Shown here: positions 56,406 to 59,307 of the stretch, one piece after another
Numbering within the stretch: position 1 is the stretch's first letter
Layout: each line of letters opens with the position of its first letter
Assembly (NCBI RefSeq): GCF_009296185.1
Contig: NZ_WBJR01000005.1
Coordinates: forward strand, 186,001 to 250,000
Source of the DNA: Hydrogenovibrio sp. JE_KL2
GTDB lineage: Bacteria > Pseudomonadota > Gammaproteobacteria > Thiomicrospirales > Thiomicrospiraceae
DNA: 64,000 nt
Reading direction: 5' to 3'
Translations under genes and position numbers: made by a program
The notes under the pieces: model-generated
Database searches by the model: none
The model's input: the letters and a program-made list of their open reading frames with translations, nothing else
What the model was told of the DNA's origin: nothing

Positions 56406-56755
56406 GTTGTTTTAATTTTGATTGCCAGTCTTTAATTTCGGTGTGTATGTCCCTAAAAGCCTGGCAATGCCTCTCATGGAAAAATTTATTTTCATTTCAT
56501 TGATTTGTAATAAAAATATTACTTGCAAAACGTTACAAAAGCGGAATAATACGCTTCTCCTTTTTCACACAGAAACCTAACGGTCTGACCGAAGGAAACA
56601 GAAAGAAAAATGGTTAAACCTCACGCCAAGAAAATACTTTTCAAGGGCGTGGTTGGGGTTCAGTGGACTAGCCTTTGTTCATCTGAATTGTTATTAATCA
56701 TTCATCCGTATTCACTTCTAATTTCATGCGGGTGTTTTATAAAGGTATTCTCATA
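56406..56755. other. Leader region of the speD-speE-odc operon
   Basis: This 350-bp gap holds an AT-rich inverted repeat (GTAATA and TATTAC, 56509-56524), a candidate promoter (56523-56551), a small CGGTC/GACCG hairpin near 56581, a 48-codon frame (56610-56756) and a strong hairpin inside it (56622-56651). Together they look like a regulated leader of about 200 nt for the polyamine genes. Confidence 0.5.
56523..56551 (+). promoter_or_regulatory. Candidate sigma-70 promoter for the polyamine operon
   Basis: TTGCAA (56523-56528), a 17-bp spacer and ATAATA (56546-56551) fit a moderate sigma-70 promoter. Transcription would start near 56558 and give a leader of about 200 nt before speD. Confidence 0.4.
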
Positions 56756-56756
56756 A
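56610..56756 (+). CDS. Candidate 48-codon upstream ORF of speD
   Basis: ATG at 56610 follows a GAAGGAAA ribosome site, and the frame of 48 codons ends with TAA at 56754-56756. Its last base is the A of the speD ATG (TAATG overlap), so speD translation may be coupled to it. The peptide has a basic start (MVKPHAKK) and a hydrophobic, Cys- and Leu-rich C-terminal half (SELLLIIHPYSLLISCGCF). The sequence carries a hairpin with CACGCC/GGCGTG and GAAAA/TTTTC stems. No family is known; a regulatory uORF is inference. Confidence 0.4.
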   Translation: MVKPHAKKILFKGVVGVQWTSLCSSELLLIIHPYSLLISCGCFIKVFS

Positions 56757-57259
56757 TGTCACCACATGCTGAAAATATATTGGTCACAGCTAATGACCAT
56801 TTCGAAGTTATTGAAAAAACAACGGTTATCGATGACACTTGGCCAACTCATGATCAAGCCGTAGAAGACCAAACACTGGATCACTTTATTTGTCGCGATG
56901 GTAAAACCTTTGCCGGAACGCATTTGATTGCGGATTTCTGGGGTGCAAGCCGTTTGGATGATTTGCAATTGATGGAGCAAGCTTTGCGCGAAGGCGTAGA
57001 GAAAGCCAAGGCAACCTTATTACATATTCACCTACACCACTTCACACCAAATGGTGGGATTTCAGGTGTTGCCGTTTTGGCGGAGTCTCACATTAGTGTG
57101 CACTCTTGGCCTGAAAGAAACTATGCTGCATTTGACGTTTTCATGTGTGGTGATGCCGAGCCTGAAAAAGCAATTGAAGTGCTAAGAGAAGCCTTCATGC
57201 CATCTGAAGTAAAATTAGATACGATGCTTAGAGGCGAGGTGGAAAAAGATGGCGAATAA
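56756..57259 (+). CDS. speD: S-adenosylmethionine decarboxylase proenzyme (short type)
   Basis: The protein of 167 residues matches the small prokaryotic AdoMet decarboxylase (SpeH/SpeD class 1B). The self-cleavage region reads [24 protein letters not shown], where the Ser becomes the pyruvoyl group, with the catalytic Cys in FMCG. Length is a little above the about 125-residue Bacillus type because of an N-terminal extension. It supplies decarboxylated SAM to SpeE. It overlaps the speE start by 11 bp. ATG 56756 follows AAAGG by 10 nt. Confidence 0.9.
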
Positions 57260-58100
57260 TTATCTGGAAACCCTTTACCCTACTTGGGGTCAACAGTTTG
57301 TGATGAACGAAGTGTTGTTTGAGGTGGATACCGGACATCAGAAGTTGGTCATTTTTAAAAATGACCAATGGGGTACTGTAATGGCGCTGGATGGCGTTAT
57401 TCAAACCACTGAGAAAGACGAGTTTATCTATCACGAGATGATGACGCATGTGCCATTGTTTGCGCATGGCAATGCTAAAAAGGTATTGATCATTGGTGGG
57501 GGTGACGGTGGTATTTTACGCGAAGTGTTGAAACACCCAGAAGTCGAGTCAGTCACGCAGGTTGAAATCGATCAGCAAGTCATTGATATGTGTATTCAAT
57601 ATTTGCCGAATCATTCAGCGGGCGCTTATGATAGTCCGAAAGCCAACATCGTGATTGCTGATGGTGTTGATTTTGTTAACGAATGTACTGAAAAATTCGA
57701 TGTGATCATTTCTGATTCAACCGATCCTATGGGGCCGGGTGAAGTATTGTTCACGTCTTGTTTTTACCAAGGTATTAAAAACTGTCTGACTGAAGACGGT
57801 GTGTTTGTTGCGCAAAACGGAGTAAGTTTCATGCAAACGGATGAAGTAGCAACAACGTTCAAACGTTTGTCTCCTTTGTTCAAGCAAGCAAGCTTCTACT
57901 CCGGTGCAGTGCCGACTTACGTAGGGGGAATCATGACCTTTGCGTGGGCAACGGACAATTTGGCATTAAAAGAAGTGTCGCAAGAAATGATCGAAGAACG
58001 TTTCAAGGCTTCTGGTATCACCACGCGTTTTTATACTCCAGCGTTGCATAAAGGTGCTTTTGCCCTACCGCAATACGTTTTAGACGTGATTAAGGATTAA
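57249..58100 (+). CDS. speE: Spermidine synthase
   Basis: The 283-residue protein shows [19 protein letters not shown], the SAM-type fold motif [18 protein letters not shown], and the catalytic [16 protein letters not shown]. It transfers the aminopropyl group from decarboxylated SAM to putrescine. It overlaps speD by 11 bp and lies 7 bp before the decarboxylase gene, so all three genes form one operon. Confidence 0.96.
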
Positions 58101-58107
58101 TAAGCTG

Positions 58108-59307
58108 ATGGACTCACAAGAGCTGGTTCAGCATTTTGCTGAACAAAGTCATCCGGATGAACTAGAGCAGTTTGACCGTGCTAGTTTAGAAGAGTTGGTT
58201 GCCAAGCATGAAACACCTTTTATGGTGTTGGACTTGGAAGAAGTGGATTATCAATACAAGTCCTTGCAAGCTGCGTTGCCAGGGGTGAAGTTGTTCTATG
58301 CGCTAAAATCTTTGTCACATCCAGAGTTGATTAAACGTCTGAAAGGACTTGGGTGTCATTTTGATTTGGCGACCATCGGTGAAGTTGATTTGGTTGAATC
58401 TTTGGGGATTAAGGGGGATCGTTGTATTCATACCCACCCTATTAAGAAAGATAAAGAAATCAAACGTGCGCTTGAGTTCGGCTGTAAACGCTTTGTGGTA
58501 GATAATTTCGAAGAAATGAAGAAATTCTACAAGTATGCAGGGCAGGTCGAGCTGATTATTCGTGTCAGTTTCCGCAGCAAACAAGCTGTTGTCGACTTAT
58601 CACGTAAGTTTGGTTGCTCTTTAGAAGAACTGCCTGTGCTGGTTGAAATGGCGCAGAGTAACGGCATTGAAGTAGTTGGTTTGTCTTTCCATGTTGGATC
58701 GCAATCACTGTCTCCTGCAACACAGGTTAATGCCATTCGTTCAAGCGTTGCAGCAATGAAAGTTATGAACAACGTGAAATGGAAGTTTTTGGATATTGGC
58801 GGCAGCTTCCCGGTTTCATACCAAGAAGAAGTGACTCCAATTGAAGAATTTTGTGCACCGGTAATGGAAGCATTGTCTGAACTACCAGAGCATATTGAAG
58901 TTTTTGCCGAGCCGGGTCGTTTTATTTCTGCGCCGTCAATGATTGAAGTGGTTTCTGTGGTTGGTAAGGCCAAGCGCGGGTCTCGTACTTGGTACTATTT
59001 GGATGATGGTGTCTATGGTGGGTTCAGTGGTCAAATGTTTGATCACGCCTCTTACCCGATAGCACCTTTGAAGCCGTTTGATCCGCTAGGAGAGTTTTAC
59101 CCAAGCGTATTGGCAGGGCCAACTTGTGATTCCATTGATGTGGTCGCCGAAGATATTGAGCTGCCAGAATTGGAGGTAGGTGATATTTTGATCGGTAAGC
59201 AAATGGGGGCCTATACCATTGCATCTGCAACGGAATTTAACTATTATCCTAAGCCAAAAATAGTGGTTGTAGAGGATATCTTTGATCCGACAACTGAAGC
59301 GTTGTAA
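58108..59307 (+). CDS. Ornithine decarboxylase (fold III, alanine-racemase type)
   Basis: The 399-residue protein is a group IV PLP decarboxylase. The PLP Lys is in FYALKSLSHPELIKRL, the Gly-rich PLP phosphate site around LDIGGSFP, and the substrate/Cys motif GPTCDSIDVV. This motif is typical of eukaryotic-like ornithine decarboxylases, although lysine or dual activity cannot be excluded. It should make putrescine for SpeE. Together with speD and speE this is a complete route from ornithine and SAM to spermidine. Confidence 0.87.
   Translation: MDSQELVQHFAEQSHPDELEQFDRASLEELVAKHETPFMVLDLEEVDYQYKSLQAALPGVKLFYALKSLSHPELIKRLKGLGCHFDLATIGEVDLVESLGIKGDRCIHTHPIKKDKEIKRALEFGCKRFVVDNFEEMKKFYKYAGQVELIIRVSFRSKQAVVDLSRKFGCSLEELPVLVEMAQSNGIEVVGLSFHVGSQSLSPATQVNAIRSSVAAMKVMNNVKWKFLDIGGSFPVSYQEEVTPIEEFCAPVMEALSELPEHIEVFAEPGRFISAPSMIEVVSVVGKAKRGSRTWYYLDDGVYGGFSGQMFDHASYPIAPLKPFDPLGEFYPSVLAGPTCDSIDVVAEDIELPELEVGDILIGKQMGAYTIASATEFNYYPKPKIVVVEDIFDPTTEAL

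Follow-up and report, generated by a model that had tools for sequence, protein, structure and literature searches.

The locus considered here raises the question of how the first gene of a polyamine operon is controlled, whether by a short peptide encoded ahead of it or by the RNA of its leader. In the window, which is the whole stretch of 64,000 nucleotides that was analysed, three polyamine biosynthesis genes follow one another on the plus strand: speD, encoding S-adenosylmethionine decarboxylase (56756..57259; TIGR03330, E 2.1e-38); then speE, encoding spermidine synthase (57249..58100; NF002010 and TIGR00417, both above cut-off); and then a relative of lysine/ornithine decarboxylases, here called odc (58108..59307; best PDB match 2plj, E 1.2e-118). 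The speD start was taken to be 56756. An in-frame start further upstream, at 56726, was considered and rejected; an ATG at the same place was found only in L028 and L029, in-frame upstream ATGs lay elsewhere in L032 and L043, and none was present within 30 codons in the other loci.

The leader is preceded by a promoter-like site on the plus strand (56523..56550; -35 TTGCAA at 56523-28 and -10 AATAAT at 56545-50), which has 9 of 12 consensus matches. The window holds one such match against a shuffle mean of 1.2, which makes the site weak when taken alone. AATAATA precedes the motif TCCTTTTT in 29/29 leaders, and a TTG stands about 20 bases upstream of AATAATA in the leaders inspected. The site appears to be kept in relatives, and a transcription start downstream of 56610, which the initial annotation had named as counter-evidence to its own proposal of an upstream frame, was not seen. 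TCCTTTTT itself (56558..56565, plus strand) was invariant in all 29 leaders and lies near the expected transcription start, and the pattern AATAATACN{3,8}TCCTTTTT has a single occurrence in the organism's own genome. The motif stands directly 3' of the -10 box and may pair with the Shine-Dalgarno sequence or with purine runs of the leader, or may affect the transcription start.

At 56539-56556, spanning the -10 box of the window, a weak inverted repeat with T residues behind it resembles a terminator on the plus strand; it was dropped as a candidate because 28 of 1000 exchanged-arm controls were equally good. This was the sole plus-strand terminator-like match, and it overlaps the promoter-like site. 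From 56557 to 56755, a simple consensus scan of the window detected nothing terminator-like on the plus strand, and the lack of such a site between the leader and speD favours translational control.

A conserved three-way junction before speD

A conserved three-way junction, in which P1 closes P2 and P3, lies with an adjoining hairpin, P4, directly upstream of the speD ribosome-binding site. The conserved RNA measures about 165 nt, and it was described by a covariance model, R1, that runs through the junction, P4 and the ribosome-binding site (56598..56761, plus strand). R1 scored 144.6 bits (E 1.8e-29) on the organism's own genome, the window itself being among the sequences from which the model was built. 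Two alignments were used: A1, with 26 of 29 leaders (L041 and L053 were left out for long insertions, and L045 as a duplicate of L042), and A2, with 29 of 30 model hits (L095 was left out as a duplicate of L094).

In the RNAalifold consensus, the strand AAUGGUUA (56609..56616, plus strand) pairs with UAAUCAUU (56695..56702, plus strand) to form P1, which encloses P2 and P3, and P4 comes next. The eight pairs of P1 were kept in 26/26 sequences and never varied. P2 (56619..56656, plus strand) is built from CCUCACGCC and GGCGUGG-UU-GG with a bulge at 56653-54; 3 of its 9 pairs were altered on both sides, and 97.4% of its cells were paired. P3 (56657..56689, plus strand) carries the loop UAGCCUUU at 56669-56676 on a stem of 11 pairs, of which 8 were altered on both sides. 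P4 (56703..56734, plus strand) joins CAUCCGUA to UGCGGGUG; R1 contains 8 pairs, 4 of them altered on both sides, and in the window a ninth pair extends the helix. A small predicted 5' hairpin, P0 (56576..56595, plus strand), was recovered in 20/29 leaders and is therefore not found in all relatives. RNAalifold also proposed a small helix between the ribosome site and the start codon (columns 173-176/188-191), which was omitted from the model because its letters are conserved for other reasons; it is a possible part of the fold. Long insertions were seen in the P2 and P4 loops of G031 (L041/L105) and between P3 and P1 in L103, and L104/L120 carried a long insertion also between the motif and speD.

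Among the 26 aligned leaders, 58 of the 192 alignment columns were invariant, with freely varying stretches between them, and the loops varied freely. Over 36 pairs and 933 cells, 96.5% were paired, against 88.4% in shuffled alignments and 29-45% with slid partners; since the structure was taken from the same sequences, this by itself favours the fold over the slid controls. Both sides were altered in 15 of the 36 pairs (shuffled mean 9.4), and the covariation score was 0.290, compared with 0.135 (sd 0.009) after shuffling and at most 0.070 with slid partners. A speD DNA tree of the 26 sequences, built with FastTree and rooted at its midpoint, further served for a parsimony count of changes. 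This gave 46 double and 41 single changes that kept the pair and 32 breaks or regains, whereas slid partners on the same tree gave 1-5 double changes and 104-173 breaks; the counts are rough, as the tree comes from one short gene. Because P1 and the core of the pseudoknot considered below are invariant, covariation is silent on both, and P1 is consistent with the data, not proven by covariation. A conserved and covarying structure in the 5' leader, as expected of a riboswitch, was thus found, with P1 as its invariant part.

On average, the single helices folded better than their shuffles. When the elements were excised from 27 of 29 sequences per helix and compared with shuffles, the mean z was -2.05 for P2, -3.44 for P3 and -3.39 for P4; P2 of L099 folded worse than its shuffles. 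Whole leaders were only moderately unusual (z of -2.12 in the window and from -3.12 to 0.03 in six relatives), and the minimum-energy structures of two of these six relatives, L035 and L057, were without P1.

Distribution of the leader

The family sample comprised 62 genomes, and the whole order sample falls in this family. A speD match was present in 46 of them, and R1 was found in 30 (8 of genus g1, 21 of g3 and 1 of g4), with the best R1 match before speD in 30/30. In G060, an insertion of about 400 nt separates the motif from speD. The R1 search of the family genomes did not find the motif in 16 of the 46 speD genomes, which belong to genera g2, g6 and g7, or in any of the 16 genomes without a speD match, several of which are incomplete. 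Beyond the family, R1 matched 2 of 369 genomes of an even sample of the class (E<=0.1), both from this family, and 1 of 398 genomes of the phylum sample (E<=0.01), which was the organism's own; these searches used strict filters through which weak copies may be lost. The named records with the core pattern numbered 12 and were Thiomicrorhabdus, Hydrogenovibrio, a Piscirickettsiaceae MAG and Thiotrichales MAGs. The distribution of the motif is narrow, with copies in three genera of one family of sulfur-oxidising sea bacteria, and the organism's own genome has one copy.

Weak R1 hits in G058 (31.6 bits) and G008 (31.3 bits) were taken as chance; by eye, the adjoining ORFs had no evident polyamine link, and one of the two hits also matched on the opposite strand with 16.8 bits. 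A decayed copy of the leader was seen before trpB in G003 (L073 1583-1725, that is G003:C1:265582-265724; also L020 1501-1546) at 25.2 bits; no speD lies directly behind it, and 46 of its bases align with window positions 56668-56712 at 96% identity. The speD leaders of genus g7 (L051, L056 and L059) contain other G+C-rich hairpins, unmatched by R1, which by eye are terminator-like with a T run and are possibly another kind of attenuator.

Possible regulation through the ribosome-binding site

CCUU is conserved in the P3 loop above a variable stem, and the loop is complementary to AAGG, which is invariant in the ribosome site of speD. Pairing of the strand GCCUUU in this loop (56671..56676, plus strand) with the speD Shine-Dalgarno sequence AAAGG(U) (56741..56746, plus strand; AAGGT invariant in 26/26) is proposed, so that the loop would mask the ribosome site. 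In the 28 of 29 leaders that could be parsed (L104 was the exception), loop and Shine-Dalgarno sequence offered 5-7 contiguous pairs including G-U in 28/28, and just 5 in 6 of them. Where the loop reads CCUUG(U), it meets GUAAGG in 7/7 cases, giving G-U,U-G; the 21 loops with CCUUUG face AAAGG in 12 and UAAGG in 9, where the next pair fails, and U-A,G-U outside the core was found in 11 of them. Shuffled loops equalled the observed pairing at frequencies of 0.02-0.36 in the 16 of 28 sequences used for this control. Since shuffled loops often pair as well, the pseudoknot between GCCUUU and AAAGGU is plausible, not established, and the complementarity lends it moderate support.

Taken together, we consider it rather probable that translation of speD-speE-odc is controlled in cis by the structured RNA of the speD leader, most likely a riboswitch that represses when a metabolite of the polyamine pathway is abundant. 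The initial annotation had thought a polyamine- or SAM-responsive leader possible; the covarying RNA before speD bears out the leader, and its responsiveness, like the identity of the ligand and the switching, is inferred. A metabolite of the polyamine pathway would stabilise the junction and the pseudoknot, the stabilised fold would hide the ribosome site and turn the speD-speE-odc operon off, and without ligand the P3 loop would release the ribosome site so that speD could be translated. Spermidine would be the first candidate for the ligand, another polyamine the next, and SAM or decarboxylated SAM the last. The single copy in the organism's own genome, standing before speD, makes a polyamine-specific signal likelier than a general SAM signal. 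End-product feedback by spermidine would be the simplest choice, and a precedent for it exists (PMC10853860). Weighing against the riboswitch reading are the narrow distribution, the 16 speD genomes of the family without the motif, the insertion in G060, the moderate folding of whole leaders and the loops with just 5 pairs to the ribosome site. More specifically, and only tentatively, the leader may represent a new riboswitch class unrelated to SAM-I, whose junction would bind spermidine or another free polyamine, dock the P3 loop onto the Shine-Dalgarno sequence and so stop translation of speD-speE-odc; it would then be the second independent natural polyamine aptamer.

In the main rival reading, a regulatory protein binds the fold and so blocks the ribosome site, the RNA itself binding no metabolite; such a protein might, for example, be SpeD or SpeE acting autogenously, or a repressor that binds RNA. 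A protein site would account for the 58 invariant columns and the single target gene no less well than an aptamer, and the narrow distribution is also in its favour. However, a junction with a possible pseudoknot exceeds what most protein sites are generally known to need, and speD occurs without the motif in more than a third of the speD genomes of the family, so that we regard a protein target as unlikely, if still worth serious weight. Still less probable, in our judgement, is a constitutive structured leader that sets the level of speD without sensing a ligand, through stability, RNase protection, translational enhancement or a response to temperature. Such an element would agree with the fact that structure and gene link are what has been shown here and that no computation proves switching, but invariant junction nucleotides beside covarying stems are, from general knowledge, typical of binding sites, and the tie to one biosynthetic operon also speaks against it.

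The riboswitch reading was compared with known RNA classes. With Rfam 15, nothing exceeded the curated cut-off in the window stretch or in the loci of six relatives. The window stretch gave three matches far below cut-off, one of which, SNORA17 (16.2 of 29 bits), lay over P3; the six loci gave 12 matches below cut-off, which is chance level, including STnc240 and L20 leader over the L084 leader (E 4 and 4.7). A set of 224 motifs that has reportedly been published was compared here as far as Rfam includes it. SAM-II, SAM-V and preQ1-II riboswitches are translational switches that draw the ribosome site into a pseudoknot, and all three were absent among the Rfam matches at E<=5 in the window stretch and the six loci. 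The SAM-I model (RF00162), by which alone the comparison with SAM-I was made, had no match in the leader (E<=5) or in the organism's own genome (E<=0.1); a control search with it found matches in 3/14 genomes.

According to Salvail et al. (2023; PMC10853860), the confirmed spermidine riboswitch is a rare variant of SAM-I with its four stems, known from 13 examples in Gram-positive bacteria. It is found before spermidine and polyamine genes including speD, and it acts by transcription termination as an OFF switch in feedback by spermidine. The speD leader likewise precedes polyamine genes, and OFF feedback by spermidine is proposed for it here. Unlike that riboswitch as there described, it is a three-way junction with P4, occurs in Gammaproteobacteria, and has neither a SAM-I match nor, in the simple scan, a terminator-like site. 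The odc1 motif (Brewer et al. 2021; PMC8632094) consists of a single extended hairpin that carries two UUG starts and encodes a conserved uORF of 11 aa, located before ornithine decarboxylase in Alphaproteobacteria. Like odc1, the speD leader is a structured proteobacterial RNA ahead of a polyamine gene; for it, too, a pseudoknot is proposed, and its ribosome site would likewise be masked. It differs in having no conserved peptide and another fold. In the searched sections of PMC2864571 and PMC8632094, no RNA element upstream of speD was mentioned for these bacteria. No earlier report of such an element was found in the literature searched, which consisted of main texts and few subscription papers, and a search with the same small share of subscription papers found no gammaproteobacterial polyamine aptamer of this kind.

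The short upstream frame and the meaning of the leader

The initial annotation had read the leader as a translationally coupled upstream ORF with its own ribosome site and a hairpin. The 48-codon ATG frame is indeed present (56610..56756, plus strand), its TAA stop and the ATG of speD have one A in common in the sequence TAATG (56754-56758), and the hairpin exists and folds (CACGCC/GGCGTG at 56622-27/56646-51, with an inner GAAAA/TTTTC at 56630-34/56638-42). This hairpin proved to be P2 of the larger covarying fold, and a 48-codon frame is unremarkable where 85 ORFs of at least 30 aa were listed over about 8 kb. The AAGG taken as the ribosome site of the frame (56592-95) stops 14 nt short of the ATG; it forms the 3' strand of P0 and is absent in leaders without P0.

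Frames were compared in 29 leaders with AATGGTTA within 420 nt upstream of speD, which represent 29 of the 30 motif genomes, G060 falling outside the 420 nt taken. The TAATG overlap was absent in 28/28 relatives, and the frame itself was lost through stops or shifts in 27/28; across the 29 leaders, frames spanned 6-55 codons. The exception was the nearest relative, L028 (G010), whose leader is 93% identical to that of the window and which has a near-identical 47-codon frame with its stop 2 nt before the speD ATG; only L028 resembles the window peptide along its length. The ATG was present in 29/29 leaders, all of which had been chosen by AATGGTTA, and it lies in the invariant 5' strand of P1, which explains its conservation. 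The supposed uORF is accordingly judged non-coding and would be a by-product of the P1 strand AAUGGUUA.

The initial annotation knew of no bacterial counterpart to the eukaryotic uORFs that control AdoMet decarboxylase, yet bacterial uORFs of polyamine genes had already been published: PMC7815308 describes speFL and mdtU of Escherichia coli as leaders that respond to ornithine or spermidine and depend on a translated uORF and Rho, and odc1 (PMC8632094) is another. The speD leader is, like speFL and mdtU, a gammaproteobacterial leader; unlike what is described for them, its frame is not conserved. That a translated 48-codon peptide couples to speD, or stalls before it, in a polyamine response is thus very improbable and was rejected: these precedents, the frame, its ATG and TAATG in the window, and the frame kept in L028 speak for it, but the frames in the other relatives contradict it, with no peptide conservation past the nearest relative, an overlap confined to the window, an ATG that P1 accounts for and a ribosome site that goes where P0 goes.

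Claims of polyamine sensing by RNA are of long standing, and demonstrations are rare. If the riboswitch reading is true, a second RNA of different architecture would reveal how a small polycation can be distinguished by RNA against the ionic background, and the speD leader, at about 165 nt, is a compact and conserved object for testing this. The locus also illustrates that an apparent uORF can be the by-product of a folded leader. For the organisms themselves, the leader, if it acts as proposed, would explain how spermidine synthesis is controlled in these chemolithoautotrophs.
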